Positions 42,382 through 53,275 of a DNA stretch of 64,000 nucleotides are shown here, piece after piece. This DNA comes from Nitrosospira sp. Nsp14 (GTDB taxonomy: Bacteria; Pseudomonadota; Gammaproteobacteria; Burkholderiales; Nitrosomonadaceae). Below the pieces are notes generated by a model. The model had not been told where the DNA came from and did no database searches. It saw only the letters and a program-made list of their open reading frames with translations. The position numbers and the translations under genes were made by a program. Positions within the stretch are counted from its first letter, which is position 1, and each line of letters starts with the position of its first letter. The stretch is taken from the NCBI RefSeq assembly GCF_900113575.1, contig NZ_FOPV01000008.1:1-64000 (forward strand), given 5' to 3'.

Positions 42382-43593
42382 TTAGGCCAGGAAAATATCG
42401 CCCGCATCGAGCTCAGGAGCTCCTACCAATTGCGCGAGGGGAGTGGAATCGTGGTAGCCCTTGCTTCCGTTGGCATCGAACGACAGCACGCCTGTTGTTT
42501 CGTTGTAGACGAAGTAATCGTCTTTGTCCTCGGCTTTGCCCCACTTGTTGCTGGCAAAATTGTCGTCATCAAGCTCGCCCTTTTCTAGATCGTTCTTGTA
42601 ACCCTTGATGGCTTCGTTGACGTCTCTGAGGCTGAATACGAGCGTGTCCTCGCCCGATTCGAAGCCAAGGATCTTGTCGAAGCCGTTGGACCATTTGGAT
42701 ACACCGCTGAACACGATAGCGTCCTCGCCTTTGCCGCCGTCGATCTTGTCGTTACCACGGCCGCCTACCAGCAAATCGTCGCCCTTGCCGCCATAAAGCG
42801 TGTCGTCCCCATCGTTGCCGAAGAGCTTGTCGTTACCCTTGCGGCCGTCGAGATAGTCGTTGCCCTTGCCACCAATGAGCGTGTCGTTGCCTTTGGTGCC
42901 AACTATGTACTTGCCATAGTGACTCTGGTTGTGATCGGCATAGCTGTCATGGTCTTCCCGTTCGCCATAATCCTTCCCGTTCTGGTCCTTGTAATGATCC
43001 TTCTTGTCGTCGTCGTCCTTCTTGTGGTCGTCGTCCTTCTTGTGGTCATCGTCCTTCTTGGCGTGCTTGTCGTGCTTCTTGTCGTCGTCGTCCTTCTTGT
43101 GGTCATCGTCCTTCTTGTGGTCATCGTCCTTCTTGGCGTGCTTGTCGTCCTTCTTGTCGTCGTGCTTCTTGTCGTCGTCGTCTTTCCGATGATCATCCTT
43201 CTTCTTGTCGTCATCGTCCTTCTTGGCGTGCTTGTCGTCCTTCTTGTCGTCGTGCTTCTTGTCGTCGTCGTCTTTCCGATGATCATCCTTCTTCTTGTCG
43301 TCATCGTCCTTCTTGGCGTGCTTGTCGTCCTTCTTGTCGTCGTGCTTCTTGTCGTCGTCGTCTTTCCGATGATCATCCTTCTTCTTGTCGTCATCGTCCT
43401 TCTTGGCGTGCTTGTCGTCCTTCTTGTCGTCGTGCTTGTTGTCCTTGTCGTCGTGTTTGTTGTCCTTCTTATCGTCTTTATGTTCTTCCTTCTTGGCGTT
43501 CTTGTCGTCTTTCTTGTATTCGTCCTTATGATCGTCCTTATGATCGTCGTTCTTGCGACCGAGCACTGCTCCGGCATCTAAAGTAATAGTCAT
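42382..43593 (-). CDS. RTX calcium-binding protein with D/K/H repeat region
   Basis: A 403-residue protein; ATG follows AGGAGA. Residues about 13-205 are an almost pure Asp/Lys/His low-complexity region. It contains a perfect 30-residue repeat (KHAKKDDDDKKKDDHRKDDD plus DKKHDDKKDD), present at least three times and degenerating outward. Then come about seven RTX nonapeptides, beginning GTKGNDTLIGGKGNDYLDG, which bind Ca in a beta-roll. A C-terminal domain of about 120 residues ends DAGDIFLA. There is no Sec signal, as expected for type I secretion; no T1SS genes are in the window. The D/K/H part should be disordered and metal-binding. Function unknown: surface or matrix protein is possible. 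Confidence 0.85.
   Translation of the reverse strand: MTITLDAGAVLGRKNDDHKDDHKDEYKKDDKNAKKEEHKDDKKDNKHDDKDNKHDDKKDDKHAKKDDDDKKKDDHRKDDDDKKHDDKKDDKHAKKDDDDKKKDDHRKDDDDKKHDDKKDDKHAKKDDDDKKKDDHRKDDDDKKHDDKKDDKHAKKDDDHKKDDDHKKDDDDKKHDKHAKKDDDHKKDDDHKKDDDDKKDHYKDQNGKDYGEREDHDSYADHNQSHYGKYIVGTKGNDTLIGGKGNDYLDGRKGNDKLFGNDGDDTLYGGKGDDLLVGGRGNDKIDGGKGEDAIVFSGVSKWSNGFDKILGFESGEDTLVFSLRDVNEAIKGYKNDLEKGELDDDNFASNKWGKAEDKDDYFVYNETTGVLSFDANGSKGYHDSTPLAQLVGAPELDAGDIFLA
43166..43436 (-). repeat. Perfect 90-bp tandem repeats in the RTX gene
   Basis: Three direct copies of a 90-bp unit; the marker TTTCCGATGATC on the plus strand falls at 43183, 43273 and 43363. The unit codes for 30 residues, so copy-number changes keep the frame. 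Identity between copies points to recent expansion. Confidence 0.85.
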
Positions 43594-44243: not shown

Positions 44244-46151
44244 TTAGTCGTCGGAAAGGGCTTCCATTTCCAAATGCGCCTCTCGGCGCAAATAACCTCG
44301 CCAGCCACCATACCGGCTGATATCTTCCGCCTGGGCAATTGCGTAATGCTCGCACAGGAATCCCTGCACATTTTCCCCGCTTCCCAGCGTGATGGTACCG
44401 ATACCGAGCGGGACCGGAATGCGGGCTACGAGGCTCCCGAACTCGTTTTCCGGCATCTCCCACACTTCGACATCGATTGCAGTCCCTTGCTCACTGGTTT
44501 CCACATGCACCAACCCGGGGCGATGGGGCGGCCCGCCAGGTAGGGCGTAGAGTTTGTAGTCAGAAGAGGTGGTGGTTGTGGCTACCCATCGTCCACCATG
44601 GCCCGTCAATTCGCCATTCAACGGCAGGCCGGACATATGCGCCCCGCAAACAACTACCTTTATCCAGCCCGGTTGCCGGCTCTCCCCCGATGCCGAAGAT
44701 GAAATGCCTGTTAGATACCGTTCCGGCAAAACGCCTGTTATCAGGGGCATTGCGGTGGCTCCAAGAGGAAGCGCATAAGTTTGCTGCAAGCGTTCTGCAA
44801 GATGTAACAGCAGCGTGTCGCGGTGGGCTTGCGCCACCAATGTTGTGCCAAAGGGCAGCCCATCGTTTTGAAATCCAGCCGGCACCGCCACTGCAGCATA
44901 ATCGAGAAGGTTGACAAAATTAGTGTAGTAGCCCAGATTCGAATTGAGGCGCACGGGATCCCGCTGCATGGCCTGGATGGTATAAATCGTTCCCGCAGTG
45001 GGCGTCAGCAGACAATCGACTTGCGTCCATACCCGGTCAGTTTCGCGCTTGAGCCTGCGCAGCTCGTATGCACCCTTGTAGGCATCCGCGGCGGAATAAC
45101 CCCTGGCGCCTTCGATGATCTCACGCACAGGTGTGATCACCTGGTCGCTGTGCAGCTCAAAAAAATCCTTGATTGCCGCGTACCGTTCGGCTACCCGCGG
45201 GCCTTCATACAGCAGGCGCGCAGTTTCGAGAAACGGGGCGAAGTCTATCTCGGCAGGCGTGCCGCCCAACGCCTCCATGCTTGCCACCGCCCGGTCGAAC
45301 AGCCGTGCAGTATCCTGATTGCCAAAGAATTGCAGCTGATGTCGGCGAGGCACCCCAAAGCGGAAGCGGCCATCGCCGCCACTGACGCTGAAATCGACAA
45401 CATGCTCCTCTCTCCGCCGAGAATAAATATCCTCTTCATCATACCCGGCCGCCACTTCAAGTATGCGCTTCGCATCGGTGGCGGTGAAGGCGAAGATGGA
45501 AACACAATCGAGCGAACGGCAAGCCGGCACCACACCTCTGGTGGATAGCCAACCCTTGGTCGGCTTATACCCGACCAGATTATTGAACGCCGCAGGGACT
45601 CTGCCAGAACCAGCGGTATCGGTTCCGAGACTGAAGCATACCGTTCCTTTTGCCAGCGCCACTGCCGAGCCGGAGCTCGAACCGCCGGAAATATAATCCG
45701 GGTTCAGCGCATTGTGGCAAGCGCCGTACGGCGACCTTGTACCATTCAGGCCAGTGGCGAATTGATCGAGATTGGTCTTTCCAATGGGAATTGCCCCGGC
45801 ATCGATCAATCTCTGTACCACCACCGCGGTCTTGCAAGGCGTGTAGGCGTAAGCGGGGCACGCAGCTGTGGTCGGGACGCCTGCCAGATCAATATTATCC
45901 TTGATCGCGAAGGGAATGCCGTACAACGGCAGCGCGGCCATGTCGGCTACCCTCGCCTCCACCTCCCGCGCATACTCGCGCAACACCTCCAGTGGCCGTA
46001 CGTATATCCAGGCGTTACTGTCATCGTTGCTGACGAGCGTGTGCACCCTCTCCACCACCTGGCTGGGTGTCAGTTCGCCGCTCGCATAGCGCCGCAAGAG
46101 GGTCTCGATATCGCCCGGACAAACCAACGGGAAAAGCTCATCCATGCTCAT
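44244..46151 (-). CDS. atzF: Allophanate hydrolase
   Basis: A 635-residue protein: an N-terminal amidase-signature domain (about 1-460) plus a C-terminal domain of about 150 residues with a gamma-glutamylcyclotransferase-like fold, as in complete AtzF/DUR1 enzymes. The Ser-cisSer-Lys triad is Lys84 (FAIKDNID), Ser158 ([11 protein letters not shown]) and Ser182 ([11 protein letters not shown]). It turns allophanate into two ammonia and two CO2 (the C-terminal domain handles N-carboxycarbamate). Its ATG overlaps the carboxylase stop by 4 nt (ATGA), giving tight coupling. Here it completes guanidine breakdown. Confidence 0.93.
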
Positions 46152-49100
46152 TCTTCCTCAACGATAAGGAGCATCTGTCCGGCCGAGACGTGTGCGCCTT
46201 CCTTGCAGAACAATTGATCTACCGTACCGCCGACGGGAGCGTCCACCGCGAATTCCATCTTCATGGACTCGACCACCAGCATCGTATCGCCGGCTTTCAC
46301 GCGGTCCCCTTTCTGCACCAGGAGTTTCCATATTGTGCCGGTCACATGCGCGGTAACGGCATGCGCGCCGTGGGGGAGATCCAGTTCGCTTTGTGTATCT
46401 GCTTCCTCCACCGTGATTTCGCTGACGTATTCCGCCTTCCCTTCGGCTTTCCAACGTTCGCGTTCGGCTTCGAACGCAGCTTGCTGAGTCGATTTAAAGG
46501 CGCTGATAGAGGGCGCGTTCTGTTCGAGGAACGCATTATATTGTTTCAAACTGAAGGTGGTATCTTCGACGCGAAGCTTGAAGCTGCCAGTAATAAAGTC
46601 TCTGCGCAGCTTGAGCAGTTCGCTCTCGCTCACCGGATAGAAACGGATCTGATCGAAGAAACGCAGTAACCAGGGCTTCCCATCGACGAAATCGGCGGTC
46701 TGGCGATACCTATTCCACATCTGCACGGTACGTCCAACGAATTGATAACCGCCGGGGCCTTCCATGCCGTAGACGCAGAGATAAGCCCCGCCTATGCCCA
46801 CCGCGTTCTCCGGCGTCCATGTCCGCGCCGGGTTGTACTTGGTGGTCACGAGGCGATGGCGCGGGTCCACCGGCGTTGCCACGGGCGCACCAAGGTAGAC
46901 GTCGCCCAGTCCCAGGACCAGGTAACTTGCCTCGAAGACGATGTGCTGCACCTCTTCGATACTGCCCAACCCGTTTATCCGGCGGATGAACTCGATATTG
47001 CTCGGGCACCACGGCGCATCGTTGCGTACCGATTGCATATATTTCTCGATCGCCAAACGGGTCGCCCCATCATCCCAGGACAACGGGAGATGCACGATAC
47101 GCGACGGGACTTCGATGTGTTCCACATCCGGCAATTCCTTTTCCGCCGCCAATAAGATATCCAGCAGCTGGTTGCGGGGTAGCAGGCTTGAGTCAAAGTG
47201 GATTTGCAGCGAGCGGATGCCCGGCGTCAGGTCCAGGATACCGCTGAGTGTTTCGGTGTTCACCAAATGTTGCAGCGATTGCATCAGCGCGTGCGCGCGA
47301 AAGCGCAAATTCAGGTCGAGCTCCAGCGGCCCATACTCGACCAGCAGATTCTTGTCGCCCGCCTGCCGGTATATCACCTGTACCTGCCCCCTGCTTTGCG
47401 GAGTAAAGTGCAGGACCGGCGTGCCGGAGGCGGCTAACGCTGACTTGGGCGCAGGCGCTGCAGCATCCGCTGATTTAAGATCCCGGATCATCCTCTCCTG
47501 CCGTTTCTCCTCGACGAGCGCCTGCTCTACCGATACCGGGCGGAATCGAACGCTATCGCCCGGCTTGAGCTGCCCCATCTTCCATAGCTCCGCTTGAATG
47601 ATCGTAACCGGGCAAACGAAACCGCCGAGGCTGGGGCCATCCGGCCCGAGAATCACCGGCATGTCGCCGGTGAAATCCACAGTGCCAATAGCATATGCAT
47701 TGTCATGTATATTCGACGGATGCAACCCCGCCTCGCCGCCGTCGCTCCGTGACCACTGCGGTTTCGGACCGATCAGGCGCACGCCGCTGCGGCTGGAGTT
47801 GTAATGCACTTGCCAGTCGACAGTGAAAAAAGTTTGTATATCTTCATGGGTAAAAAAATCAGGGGCCCCATGTGGACCATACAGCACGTCGATCTCCCAC
47901 CTGCCGCTGTAATGGGGAATGAGTTCATGCGGCAGCGCAAGCGGAGCATGCGCAACGGGAAGCGACTCCGCTTCGACAATATGCAGCACGTCCCCAGTCA
48001 GAAGCGCTCGCCCCCCATGCCCCCCAAACTGACCAAGGGTGAAAGTGGACTTGCTGCCGAGATAATCTGGAACTTTGAAACCGCCTTGCACCGCCAGGTA
48101 AGAGCGACAACCGTGATTTGCGATTTTTCCAAGCTGAACCACCGCGCCAGCCTTGACGACGTGGGCTCGCCATTGCGCGAGGGGCTCGCCATCCAGACGC
48201 GCATCGAAGGGCGCGCCGCATATCGCAATGATGCTGTCGCAATTGAAGCGCAAGGTCGGCCCGACAAGGGTGATCTCGAGTCCAGCCTTGACTTCGTCAT
48301 TATCGACCAGTCGATTCGCCAGACGGAATGCGAAGCCATCCATGGGCCCGGATGGCGGCACCCCTATGCTCCAGTAGCCGGTCCGCCCCGGGTAATCCTG
48401 TATGGTGGTTTGCACGCCGGGGCTGAGCACATCGATAGTATTGGCGCGGTAATGAAAGCCGTTCAGGAAGCTCGTAGTGTGGCGTCCGTCGCGGAATGCC
48501 GAGCTGCGAAGGATCTGCTTGAGATAATCCAGATTGGTTTCGACGCCATCAAGCACGGTTTCATCCAGCGCGGCATACAGCCGGACCATCGCTTCCTCCC
48601 GATCTGGCGCATGTACGATGATTTTCGCCAGCATTGGATCGTAAAAAGGGGAAACCTCGACCCCTCGTTCCACCCAGGTCTCGATACGCGCTTCGGCTGG
48701 GCTTGGAAATGAAGCTCCCGTAAGTGCGCCACAGGAAGGCTGAAATTCCCTGGCTGGGTTTTCCGCATAAACACGCGCCTGTATCGAGGCACCCCGGGGT
48801 TCGACCTTGAATGAATCCAAGGAGGGCAAGTCTCCTGCGGCTTGCAGGACCATCCATTCCACCAGATCGATCCCGGTCACTTCTTCGGTAACACCGTGTT
48901 CGACCTGCAGGCGCGTATTCACCTCCAGAAAGTAGAAATCACTCGTGGATACGTCAAGAATGAATTCCACCGTGCCGGCGGATTGATAGTTCACCGACTG
49001 ACCCAAACGCGTCGCGGCATCCAGCAGCGCCTGGCGCACGCGCGACGGCAAGTTCGGCGCTGGCGTTTCTTCGATGACCTTCTGATTGCGCCGCTGCATG

Positions 49101-49786
49101 GAGCAGTCGCGCTCCCCCAGCGCAATTACCCCGCCCTTACCGTCACCAAAAATCTGTACTTCGATATGACGGGCATTGGCGATATATTTTTCCAGGAACA
49201 AACCCGCGTCGCTGAAATTGTTCCGGGCAAGATATTTCACCGATTCGTAAGCACCATTCAAGTCATCCCTGTTCCAGCACAGCCGCATGCCGATACCGCC
49301 GCCGCCGGCGGTGCTTTTCAGCATCACTGGATAACCAATATGCGCTGCCTGTCGGACCGCCTCCTCCACATCCGCAAGCAGCCCGGTGCCCGGCAGTAGC
49401 GGCAAGCCATTCTGCAGAGCCAGCTCGCGCGCCGTATGCTTCAGCCCGAAATCACGCATCTGTTTCGGGGTAGGGCCAATAAAACAGATACCGTGCGCAA
49501 CGCACTGTTCGGCAAAATCCGCCTTCTCGCTCAGGAAACCGTAACCCGGATGTATTGCTTGCACCCGCGCGCGCTGGGCAATCTCGAGTATCTTATCGGT
49601 CCGCAGATAGCTTTCCGCAGCGACTCCGCTACCGATGCAATATGCTTCGTCGGCTTCCAACGCGTGCCGCGACAGCGCGTCGGCATCTGTATACACCGCC
49701 ACACCCTTTACTCCCATGCGCCGCAGCGTGCGCATGATACGGCAAGCAATAGCGCCACGATTGGCAATCAAAACTTTCTCGAACAT
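46148..49786 (-). CDS. uca: Urea/guanidine carboxylase (biotin-dependent), probably guanidine carboxylase
   Basis: A 1212-residue multidomain enzyme. The biotin carboxylase domain (about 1-450) begins [20 protein letters not shown] and has [16 protein letters not shown] and [18 protein letters not shown]. The KipA-like (about 465-770; [20 protein letters not shown]) and KipI-like (about 815-1060) halves form the carboxyltransferase. A biotinyl domain ends the protein, with the biotin lysine at 1176 in VVESMKMEF. It is annotated as urea carboxylase by homology. Homologues beside these two associated genes and a guanidine riboswitch prefer guanidine. Product: carboxyguanidine (or allophanate if urea). 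It is in the middle of a five-gene operon. Confidence 0.92.
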
Positions 49787-49839
49787 ATATTATTCCTGAG
49801 TTTTCCACCCACCGCGAACCGCCCCGCGCGATGAGGTCG

Positions 49840-50511
49840 TCATACGGTGGGGTCGTCCCAGACCAGCAGACGGATTGGCGTCGGGTTGTAAGCGTTGCAG
49901 GGGTTGTTCAGTTGCGGACAGTTCGAGATCAACACCACCACATCCATCTCGGCTTTCATCTCCACATACTTGCCCGGCGCGGACAACCCGTCCAAGAACT
50001 CCAGGCCGCCCTCGGTTGTAACAGGCACATTCATGAAGAAATTGATATTGCTGGGTAGATCGCGCTTGCTCATGCCCAGATGCTCGCATGCCGGGTCGTG
50101 CGCCAGCGCATGCAGAAAGTTGTCCCGGCAACTGTGCATCGGGAATTTATCCAGCCCATAGCGCACCGTGTTGCTTTCGGCGGCGCATGCCCCGCCCAGC
50201 GTATCATGCCGTCCGCATGTATCGGAGACGATGGTAAGCATGACATTGCCGCAGTTGGAGTACAGCATGCTGCCTGTGGTGAGATACAGCATCTGCTGGC
50301 GGCGAATGGTGTTGGTTGCGCTATATCGCTCCGTCGCCCTCGATGCGCTGTAGAACAGCGTGTCCACCGCCTGGTTTCCGCCCAGGTCGACGATCCGAAA
50401 TACCTGTCCCTGCATCACCAGCTTGACCCACGGCTCCCCCGCGGCGCATATTTCATCCACCACCGCGGTCTCGGGATCAAGTTGACTTTCGATAAGTTGC
50501 GTTGCGCTCAT
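49840..50511 (-). CDS. Urea carboxylase-associated protein 1; carboxyguanidine deiminase subunit
   Basis: A 223-residue soluble DUF1989 protein. Motifs are [58 protein letters not shown] (conserved Cys/Asp/His) and [13 protein letters not shown]. Homologues, once called urea carboxylase-associated protein 1, form with the paralogous protein 2 a heteromeric carboxyguanidine deiminase (CgdAB) that releases one ammonia to give allophanate. It begins 4 nt inside the protein 2 gene, so the two are translated together. Which subunit is CgdA or CgdB I cannot say. Confidence 0.88.
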
Positions 50512-51239
50512 GCCGCACCTCCATCACCGCCATATAGACGTTTAGTATTTTGCAGGGCGCGCATATTCTCGATAATGCGCGCACATGCCGAAACTGCCGA
50601 GGGTGGCGAGGTAAATGCCGCCAGGCTTACGGCGCCGGGACGATAGCTCTTGGCCGGGTCGAGTGGGTGCGGTGCGGCCGAAAGAATCATCAGCGTGTCC
50701 ATTTCGAAGCTTAAGTCCACATAATCCCCGGCCTTGCTGTTGCCAGAGTGAAAAGTAAGCGCGCCCGATGCATCAGCCGTCACCTTGCTGAAGAAATTGA
50801 TATTGGTGACCAGATCGCGCATGCCCAAACCCCATTTGCCCAGCTCTATCAGCATGCCGTCCAGTCCGCTGCGGAACATTTCGTTCCGCTGCTCCTGAAA
50901 GCGCGTCATCCCGTAGTTCTCACGTATCAATGCCGTATCGCTCACTCCACACGCCGTATCGTGCCATCCGGCGGTATCCTCGGTAATACAGCAGAATATG
51001 CGCCCCATGTCTGAATGGCAGGCGTGCCCTTTCGTCAGACGGAAAGTGTGCTGCGACTTGAGCGTATCCGCCATGTTGTACCGTTCCAGTTTTTCTTCGG
51101 AATTAAAAAACAGTATTGCGGCATTCGCGCCCCCGGTTACGTCCGTCAAACGCAGCGTCAAGCCTCGGCGCAAGGTGCCTGACCAGTGACATCCCCCAGG
51201 AATGTACTGGTCCCAAAGAAGTGCATGGGGCTGGTTCAT
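50508..51239 (-). CDS. Urea carboxylase-associated protein 2; carboxyguanidine deiminase subunit
   Basis: A 243-residue paralogue of the neighbouring 223-residue protein. It starts [21 protein letters not shown]. Shared features are [61 protein letters not shown] and [11 protein letters not shown]. Conserved Cys, Asp and His residues near the middle suggest a metal or catalytic site. With the other subunit it should deiminate carboxyguanidine. An AAGGAGA-like ribosome binding site precedes the ATG. A 125-bp space separates it from the permease gene upstream. Confidence 0.88.
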
Positions 51240-51364
51240 ATTTATCTCCTTTCTTTCTTATGATTCACAAAATTTTGCCCATCAGGGACGGGTCCAACTG
51301 GACCCTGCAAAGCTGCTATAGGCGCTGGTAACTCGATCCGGGGTTCACCTGTTTATATATATAG

Positions 51365-52837
51365 CTAGTGCGGCGCGGTACTTTGTACCGCGGGTTTTTT
51401 TCTGATTCTATTAACCAGAACGTACAATGCCGTCACGATGAGAATGCTGCCCAGCACCAGAGGAACCGCCCAGAGCTGCCACCATGGAGCGGTGGGCGAC
51501 ACCGCATAAGGGCGCGGCCAGGCAATATTGATGAGTTCGAATACAGACCAGAGGAAAGCAACCGTGTTGATCGCCAAACCCCACACCCCGAGCTTGAGCT
51601 CCCCCAGTGCAGGATTCCAGCGTCCGGTTAGCCTGGTATACAACCCCACCCCGGTGGTCATCGAAAACATGGCATAGAGTCCTCCGGTACCAAACGCTAT
51701 TACCGTCGCCACCGCGCCGTCGTTCAGTCCGAACAGCAATCCGAGTCCAGCCAGCGAGACGGTACACAATACCGCCTTGCGGGGCGTTTTGTCGGGTGCC
51801 AGCTCGCTTAGCACAGCAGGCATATTCCCTTCCCGCGCCATTGAATAAACAATGCGCGAGGTATATTTCACTACCGACGCGCCGCATGCCAGGAACGCAA
51901 CCATCACAATCCCCAGAAAGGGCTTCTCCGCCCAAGCGCCAAAACTGCTGACGATAACAGGGGTGATCGGATCAGATGTGTTGCTTGCAGTTCGAAGCGT
52001 ATCCCGGTCAAACGCCAGAGTCAGGGCAGCGGAATTGAAAAGCACGACTGATCCCACCACACACAAGGATAAAAATACCGCGCGCGGCACCATGCGCTTG
52101 GGGTCATTGGTTTCTTCCGCAATGGTCGAACAGGCATCAAAACCGATGAATGCCCAGCCTGCGATCGCAAGCGCTGCGAGGAAAGCCGCGGTTTCGCCGG
52201 GAGCGGTTCCGGTGCCAAGATGCTGGAACAATTCCGTGAAAGAATGCTGCCTGAAGAAAAGAAACAGCAGGAGCGCCACGCCCAGTGAACCCACCACTTC
52301 GGCATAAACGCCGAGCGTGATGACCAGCTTGAAAATATTGACGTTAACCACGTTGATCAACGTGCAAAGCAGCAGAAAGACCGCTCCCCACATCACTAAA
52401 GCATGGCCTGTTTCACCAGGCGAGCCGAAAAACATTGATAACCAGACGCCCCCGGTATAAGCGGTTGTGGTGAGCATGGCAATAGTCGAGCTGACATAAA
52501 TGACGCCCGCGAATTGCCCTGCGGTCACACCGGCCAGCTGACGCGTCCACTTGTATGCGCCTCCCGCGATTGGGAACTGTGACGATAGTTCGGCGTACAC
52601 GGTCGCGACCAGTAATTGCATTACCAGACATGTGGCCAGCGCCGCAAACCAGCCGCCCCCCGTGACCACGGTTTGCACGCTGATAATGGCGTAAAGGCCG
52701 ACCACGGGCGAAACAACCGCGAAACCGAGCGTGAAGCTGTTCCAGACGCTCATGCTGCGGTGAAGCTTATCAGCGGCTCCAGGCGTCTTGGCGGGAATGC
52801 CCGTGGGAATATTATCCGAGGAAGGCTTTATCGACAT
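51365..52837 (-). CDS. APC-family permease, probable guanidine or urea-derivative transporter
   Basis: A 490-residue inner-membrane protein of the amino acid-polyamine-organocation family with about 12 helices. The start is taken at ATG 52837 (MSIKPSSDN): a 50-residue cytoplasmic N-terminus then leads into SVWNSFTLGFAVVSPVVGLY. Family markers are the helix 1 GFAVVSPV and IAGGAYKWTRQLAG. It heads the operon under a guanidine-I riboswitch, so guanidine is the most likely substrate. There is no good ribosome binding site at its ATG; a leader frame whose stop overlaps it may couple translation. An in-frame extension upstream to 53035 is unlikely to be translated. Confidence 0.82.
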   Translation of the reverse strand: MSIKPSSDNIPTGIPAKTPGAADKLHRSMSVWNSFTLGFAVVSPVVGLYAIISVQTVVTGGGWFAALATCLVMQLLVATVYAELSSQFPIAGGAYKWTRQLAGVTAGQFAGVIYVSSTIAMLTTTAYTGGVWLSMFFGSPGETGHALVMWGAVFLLLCTLINVVNVNIFKLVITLGVYAEVVGSLGVALLLFLFFRQHSFTELFQHLGTGTAPGETAAFLAALAIAGWAFIGFDACSTIAEETNDPKRMVPRAVFLSLCVVGSVVLFNSAALTLAFDRDTLRTASNTSDPITPVIVSSFGAWAEKPFLGIVMVAFLACGASVVKYTSRIVYSMAREGNMPAVLSELAPDKTPRKAVLCTVSLAGLGLLFGLNDGAVATVIAFGTGGLYAMFSMTTGVGLYTRLTGRWNPALGELKLGVWGLAINTVAFLWSVFELINIAWPRPYAVSPTAPWWQLWAVPLVLGSILIVTALYVLVNRIRKKPAVQSTAPH

Positions 52838-52998
52838 GGCGGGCCCATCCGAAGCAATACCGCGGGCACACTCAAATTTAGGCGATAGCGAGAAGGCGGT
52901 TCCATCCGGTTGGGTAAAGATAACCCCCCGGAGAAAGATGGAACAGAGCTGGAACCCAGCCTGCTTAAGAGCAGAAAAGGTGCAGTAGAGAGGTGCAT
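52828..52998 (-). CDS. Leader reading frame upstream of the permease (possible uORF)
   Basis: A 56-codon frame from ATG 52998, preceded by AAGGAG at the right distance. It ends with TAA at 52830-52828, overlapping the permease ATG at 52837-52835. The peptide starts MHLSTAPFLLLSRLG and is rich in Ser, Leu and Pro; it has no recognisable family. The strong ribosome binding site and the stop/start overlap suggest translational coupling. It could also be chance, as the peptide may not be conserved. Confidence 0.35.
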   Translation of the reverse strand: MHLSTAPFLLLSRLGSSSVPSFSGGLSLPNRMEPPSRYRLNLSVPAVLLRMGPPCR

Positions 52999-53058
52999 GA
53001 ACAAGGTCTCCTTGTAAATCGGCGGTCAAACCCAAGAGTCAATGTATGTGCTACATCA

Positions 53059-53162
53059 TCTCCCGGGCTTTTATCCCTCCGTGGAGCCTCGTCACGACGA
53101 AGCCGGAAACTCTCGGACCAGACGCCTCCTCTGCTGATGAGCAGGCCGGAACCCTAGTTTCG
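53059..53162 (-). promoter_or_regulatory. Guanidine-I (ykkC) riboswitch
   Basis: Read on the minus strand, the segment contains, in order, the conserved landmarks of the guanidine-I aptamer: CTAGGGTTCCG (5'), TGGTCCGAGAG (middle) and CACGGAGGGATAAAAGCCCGGGAGA (3', quoted in two overlapping pieces: CACGGAGGGATAAAAG and AAAGCCCGGGAGA). The aptamer senses guanidinium. It sits about 60 nt before the leader frame and 220 nt before the permease ATG. No T-run terminator is seen downstream, so control may be translational. Family assignment is firm. Confidence 0.92.
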
Positions 53163-53275
53163 CTTTACATCAACTGCACTTCCTGGTGGAAGCGTCAAAC
53201 TTGAAGTACAGTCAGGTATTACTGGTAGTTATTTTTGCACGCCTTGCTCAGAAAGGCAAGATGTTGCCGATCAGG

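Follow-up and report, generated by a model that had tools for sequence, protein, structure and literature searches.

A very probable guanidine carboxylase operon under one guanidine-I riboswitch in Nitrosospira sp. Nsp14, with a leader reading frame and, in related genomes, a carboxylase paralogue lacking the biotin carboxylase domain

Introduction

Guanidine metabolism by way of a carboxylase has been described for betaproteobacterial ammonia-oxidizing bacteria (AOB), and here we compare with the described systems a guanidine locus on the minus strand of a 64,000-nt stretch of Nitrosospira sp. Nsp14 (NZ_FOPV01000008.1, positions 1–64,000), hereafter the window. In PMC11410670 (Nature 2024), guanidine genes were reported for 135 of 145 betaproteobacterial AOB genomes, belonged only to the carboxylase pathway, and mostly had an APC permease nearby, with N. 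multiformis being named in the legend to Fig. 1c on riboswitch-regulated gene arrangements. N. multiformis and other betaproteobacterial AOB share with the window a guanidine-I riboswitch, an APC permease, a guanidine carboxylase (GC) with Asp1330 and Asp1584, a carboxyguanidine deiminase (CgdAB), and an allophanate hydrolase (AtzF). PMC12186494 agrees with PMC11410670, and PMC12625717 reports that guanidine genes of this kind were not found in metagenome-assembled genomes of floodplain nitrifiers. Given that this operon type has already been published for betaproteobacterial AOB, the core finding presented here is not new. The window operon by itself is another instance of a published trait, and the larger value of the comparison lies in a leader open reading frame (ORF) and in a carboxylase paralogue of related genomes.

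Carboxylase-pathway genes under guanidine riboswitches are also found, as in the window, in Pseudomonas syringae DC3000, Raoultella terrigena, and Klebsiella michiganensis (PMC11410670, PMC12186494), but these bacteria use an ABC importer instead of an APC permease, and, unlike in the window, a separate guanidine-II switch precedes the carboxylase and AtzF in Raoultella and Klebsiella. The comammox bacterium Nitrospira inopinata is likewise an ammonia oxidizer with a guanidine-I riboswitch and an APC permease (PMC11410670), but instead of the GC, CgdAB, and AtzF of the window its operon encodes a Ni guanidinase, and its urease is encoded at another site. The yeast urea amidolyase/urea carboxylase (5i8i, 3va7) has the same domain order as the window carboxylase, namely biotin carboxylase (BC), carboxyltransferase (CT), and biotin carboxyl carrier protein (BCCP), but the yeast enzyme (5i8i) has Asn at position 1330, where the window carboxylase has Asp.

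Composition of the operon

The locus very probably equips a Nitrosospira-type ammonia oxidizer with the guanidine carboxylase pathway, under the control of one guanidine-I riboswitch. Its features are as follows.

53058–53168, minus strand: guanidine-I riboswitch aptamer (RF00442), full length, 86.2 bits by cmscan against a gathering threshold of 63
53028–53070, minus strand: hairpin CCCGGGAG/CTCTTGGG, likely expression platform, from folding and from similar hairpins in leaders of the genus
52828–52998, minus strand: leader ORF of 56 amino acids (aa), Shine-Dalgarno sequence AAGGAG at 53008–53013, stop codon overlapping the permease ATG by 10 nt
51365–52837, minus strand: APC-superfamily permease of 490 aa, putative guanidine importer, PF13520/PF00324, syntenic in canonical relatives
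50508–51239, minus strand: carboxyguanidine deiminase subunit of the UAAP1 type (CgdA), TIGR03425 320.1 bits (cut-off 205.95), PF09347
49840–50511, minus strand: carboxyguanidine deiminase subunit of the UAAP2 type (CgdB), TIGR03424 335.4 bits (cut-off 284.7), PF09347
46148–49786, minus strand: predicted guanidine carboxylase with BC, CT-A/B, CT-C/D, and BCCP domains, biotinyl K1176, D704, and D962, TIGR02712 1946.5 bits (cut-off 1303.85)
44244–46151, minus strand: allophanate hydrolase AtzF, amidase and AH_C domains, TIGR02713 795.8 bits (cut-off 511.05), PF21986

With NCBIfam and Pfam, the five full-length genes were named, in ascending order of coordinates, allophanate hydrolase, "urea carboxylase", UAAP2, UAAP1, and APC permease, the first four of them above curated cut-offs. 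An earlier reading made from the letters of the window (the sequence-only reading) had described the parts of this operon, their order, and 4-nt overlaps between the carboxylase and AtzF genes (46148–46151) and between the genes for the two DUF1989 proteins (50508–50511), all of which were borne out by the ORF listing, the family profiles, and the riboswitch model. The two DUF1989 subunits are adjacent, and one is of the UAAP1 type and the other of the UAAP2 type; a search of the PDB yielded distant relatives only for CgdA and CgdB. The TIGR02713 match of AtzF is at the equivalog level and is accompanied by the AH_C domain. The permease belongs to the APC family (PF13520) and is the first full gene after the riboswitch, with the leader ORF lying in between. 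Its score for the urea-carboxylase permease model TIGR03428 was 167.5 bits, far below the cut-off of 740.45 bits.

A covariance search with the Rfam guanidine-I model, which had been proposed together with the sequence-only reading, placed the riboswitch above threshold over the full model (positions 1–107; E value of 5.3e-14), and no second match was found in a search of the 54 contigs of the same genome. Of the 61 genomes searched, 34 contain the riboswitch. Within the genus, 22 of the 23 genomes have it, that of the window included; the single exception (G001) is an 80% complete draft. In the Rfam alignment, the CCC of the hairpin at 53028–53070 makes up the 3' strand of a helix of the aptamer, and hairpin sequences resembling that of the window occur in leaders of the genus. 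A classic intrinsic terminator was not supported, with only three or four U residues following the hairpin.

Among solved structures, the yeast chains 3va7 and 5i8i come closest to the window carboxylase, with an alignment that spans residues 2–1209, and the TIGR02712 match extends over residues 2–1210 of 1212, corresponding to a full-length BC-CT-BCCP protein. Asp1584 and Asp1330 are the residues that separate guanidine carboxylases from urea carboxylases in PMC11410670. D704 of the window carboxylase aligns to N1330 of 5i8i (K. lactis numbering), and D962 aligns to the Asp of LGLGDV at K. lactis position 1584, as counted from the printed numbering. Both Asp residues and the biotinyl lysine are present in all 39 aligned carboxylase rows, and the window carboxylase is 79–87% identical in canonical congeners. 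The alignment of the CT active site, also proposed earlier, thus yielded guanidine-type residues at both positions, and the prediction that homology would label as a urea carboxylase what would be a guanidine carboxylase agrees with the NCBIfam name on the one hand and with D704 and D962 on the other.

The genome of the window contains an ammonia monooxygenase (AMO) match (PF02461, 416.5 bits, at G000:C17). To judge from this gene and from its membership of the genus Nitrosospira, the organism is an ammonia oxidizer, as the sequence-only reading had surmised. Other genomes of the genus include those of Nitrosospira sp. Nl5 (G003), NpAV (G014), and Nitrosovibrio Nv17 (G017), as identified from shared DNA. 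The urease alpha subunit was not found in the window genome with two models, as is also the case for N. communis Nm2 in PMC11410670, and the label "urea carboxylase" would therefore mislead, as it would imply that a strain with no urease detected makes use of urea. The operon is a further case of this label hiding guanidine metabolism in a nitrifier. The gene order permease-cgdA-cgdB-GC-AtzF is common to congeners with AtzF. Among the 16 genomes of the genus with AtzF, that of the window (G000) included, urease scored above cut-off in 12 and was not found in G000, G008, G009, and G020. Seven of the 23 genomes (G001, G004, G012, G013, G014, G016, and G018) showed no AMO match, so that absence from a draft is no proof, and this applies equally to absences of urease and AtzF.

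Four genomes of a sister genus (G023, G029, G032, and G035, corresponding to loci L084, L088, L089, and L091) showed the riboswitch, permease, and carboxylase only; CgdAB, AtzF above cut-off, and urease were not found in these genomes, which are 82–99% complete.

Proposed pathway and physiological role

In the pathway that we propose, binding of guanidine by the aptamer would prevent the downstream hairpin from taking the 3' strand of the aptamer, and the operon would be switched on. The APC permease would import guanidine, which the ATP- and biotin-dependent carboxylase would convert to carboxyguanidine. CgdAB would then generate allophanate and one ammonia, AtzF would hydrolyze allophanate to two ammonia and CO2, and the released ammonia would feed nitrification.

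Several points weigh against this interpretation. Guanidine is the putative substrate of the permease by virtue of gene position. A classic U-run is absent behind the hairpin, the presumed switch. Moreover, guanidine did not serve as the sole substrate for any of the five AOB strains in PMC11410670; three of these strains converted part of it, only in the presence of ammonium. The sequence-only reading had suggested that guanidine would provide both nitrogen and an electron donor; the pathway underlying this suggestion is supported by our results, whereas the electron-donor step is weakened by these culture data.

The same data, together with the statement in PMC11410670 that 1 mM guanidine inhibits N. 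europaea, would fit a genuine pathway whose role is to detoxify guanidine or to salvage it on the side, without a real contribution to energy or growth. Such a role is quite possible, if short of probable: the first gene of the operon encodes a presumed importer, the other four genes include no transporter, and the riboswitch has been retained in 22 of the 23 genomes of the genus. That the carboxylase and AtzF constitute a urea amidolyase for urea use in a urease-less strain, a view taken by older AOB papers (PMC4786657, PMC5960693) and in keeping with both the name of the NCBIfam equivalog and the negative search for urease in the strain, is highly improbable and was rejected on the basis of the Asp at position 1330 in the window protein and in 39 of 39 aligned rows, and the CgdAB genes and guanidine-I riboswitch of the operon; the additional presence of urease in 12 of the 16 AtzF-containing genomes of the genus also speaks against it.

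Leader ORF between the riboswitch and the permease

Leaders of the genus were examined in 22 genomes (G002–G022 and the window). In 21 of them, a GGAG-type ribosome binding site is followed by ATG (18) or GTG (3) at 54–63 nt past the end of the riboswitch motif; the window and all but one of its 21 congeners have the leader ORF, the exception being G021, which has lost the start codon. The peptides mostly begin with M-H-F/L and then diverge. Shorter ORFs occupy the same place in the sister genus, those of G026 and G032 beginning with MHF and that of G029 with MYL.

The likely start of the permease is ATG 52837, which yields a protein of 490 aa. The alternative TTG 53035 was dropped, given that the ATG agrees with permease starts in relatives and that the leader ORF overlaps it. 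The leader ORF runs into the permease start in 14 of the 22 genomes, as translational coupling would require. Its stop lies exactly 10 nt inside the permease start in 10 of the 22 genomes, the window among them (ATGTCGATAA), and the overlap is 4 nt in G019 and G020 and larger in G013 and G018, depending on which ATG starts the permease. The ORF ends short of the permease by 11 nt in G002, G006, and G007, by 4 nt in G017, and by 49 nt in G005 and G009, and the permease start of G008 was unresolved.

Twelve of 13 chosen leaders end at −11 to +26 nt from a permease ATG compared with 3.3 expected from dinucleotide shuffles (P value of 3e-8), with this P value being only a guide given that the interval was picked after the data had been viewed, the leaders are related, and one of three ATGs was taken for G013. 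The test left out G006, G007, G009, G014, G018, G019, and G022 as likely near-copies judged by eye, G008 for its unresolved permease start, and G021 for its missing start codon; had they been included, G009 and G021 would have counted as misses.

These observations suggest that the leader ORF probably couples translation of the permease to its own translation. It is somewhat unlikely that the frame is instead open by chance within an RNA that is conserved. A chance frame would be consistent with the lack of conservation of the peptide, by eye, after about the first eight residues, with the loss of the start codon in G021, and with the ends in G005 and G009 at 49 nt before the nearest permease ATG, but not with the clustering of 12 of 13 leader ends near the permease start compared with 3.3 expected, for ORFs of 47–123 codons. 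The sections of PMC11410670 consulted make no mention of such a leader ORF, and a literature search over titles and the beginnings of abstracts, with most subscription journals outside its coverage, showed among the papers listed no report of a leader peptide associated with a guanidine riboswitch.

Carboxylase paralogue lacking the BC domain

A second, BC-less carboxylase was found in 13 distinct genomes: six of the genus Nitrosospira and seven of the Nitrosomonas type, the latter including N. europaea ATCC 25978 and one genome labeled only Burkholderiales bacterium H5_AOB4. Seven of the 61 genomes gave a second match in a frame of 761–811 aa that covers the profile from position 432–455 to the end, with a fragment in G001 that starts at profile position 572 being left out of the count. 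Twelve of 23 loci of named relatives hold a BC-less copy; six of these genomes were already among the 61, and G011 is the thirteenth. Features of these loci are as follows.

L118:9938–12331 and L100:11461–13782: BC-less paralogue, which is also present in 11 other genomes
L118:2372–12331: guanidine locus of N. europaea with two riboswitches and five genes
L100:1937–2833, L101:15433–16350, and L097:5372–6280: biuret-hydrolase-like isochorismatase genes

The BC-less copies examined keep the guanidine-type CT residues and the biotinyl lysine. In 11 of the 13 carriers, in which the locus is uncut by a contig end, the paralogue lies directly behind the riboswitch, permease, and CgdAB genes in the place of the carboxylase. 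The seven paralogues included in the tree group together with support of 100/100, the other six not being in the tree. At 13 alignment positions, a residue common to all full-length rows is found in no paralogue; two of these positions, 696 and 709, are near D704 in the sequence. Pairwise dN/dS was 0.07–0.125 in seven paralogue pairs and 0.07–0.125 in four full-length pairs, values that are rough because dS exceeds 1 in several pairs. By this comparative measure, the paralogue is under purifying selection.

The full-length carboxylase is also present in all 13 carriers, and AtzF above the family cut-off was found in none of them. In G062 (the same as G018), a 30-position match to AtzF just after the full-length carboxylase appears to be a remnant, as if AtzF formerly stood there. 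The full-length carboxylase occurs without the paralogue in 25 of the 61 genomes, 19 with AtzF and six with none, so that AtzF can be lost from genomes in which the paralogue is absent. Among 11 named non-carriers, AtzF was above cut-off in seven, split or partial in two (L122, L134), and not found in two (L124, L127); in all such comparisons of carriers and non-carriers, related genomes are not independent and no species-tree correction was applied. Urease was above cut-off in five of the six Nitrosospira-type carriers, with G014 containing a fragment, and in none of the seven Nitrosomonas-type carriers, and a link between the paralogue and urease was therefore dropped as a rule.

BC-less transcarboxylases exist, and by analogy the paralogue might be an ATP-free transcarboxylase that transfers a carboxyl group from allophanate, yielding urea, to guanidine, yielding carboxyguanidine. 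We put this idea forward tentatively and consider it unlikely. CgdAB would run a cycle for which the full-length carboxylase would serve only as a primer, and AtzF would drain this cycle, which would explain why it was not found above cut-off in the 13 carriers. In the seven Nitrosomonas-type carriers the urea would then go unused, which to some extent counts against a role in nitrogen gain in these genomes. More simply, the full-length enzyme might serve the paralogue with its own BC domain. The paralogue gives rise to a clear biochemical prediction, namely whether guanidine can be deiminated without ATP. The literature search described above showed, among the papers listed, none on a transcarboxylase or BC-less carboxylase in a guanidine pathway, and the words truncated, paralog, and carboxyltransferase are absent from the main text, as distinct from the supplements, of PMC11410670.

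The full-length carboxylase gene of N. europaea ATCC 25978 is separated by two divergent guanidine-I riboswitches from an operon of permease, cgdA, cgdB, and paralogue genes. Infection with phage Nir1 strongly induces five genes with annotations matching N. europaea guanidine loci, and the authors of that study themselves name guanidine metabolism as an alternative (PMC13356812). By annotation, as opposed to locus tags, the induced genes are in number and kind those behind the two riboswitches of ATCC 25978. Should the two sets of genes be identical, free guanidine may rise on infection, or the operons may be derepressed by some other route.

A biuret-hydrolase-like isochorismatase gene directly follows the full-length carboxylase gene in three of the 13 carriers (G003, G011, and G014), a count that loci cut by contig ends could make too low. 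It was rejected as a general substitute for AtzF, with the single scored copy reaching 278.7 against a cut-off of 370. In the six Nitrosospira-type carriers (L100, L101, L034, L048, L049, L097, and L098), the guanidine genes have biotin synthesis genes (various parts of bioA, bioB, bioF, and bioC) as neighbors, with bioH having been checked only in L100 and bioA being found also in L117.

Other features of the window

At 42382–43593 on the minus strand, the window encodes a protein in which, by eye, long K/D/H-rich repeats precede RTX-like GGxGxD repeats.

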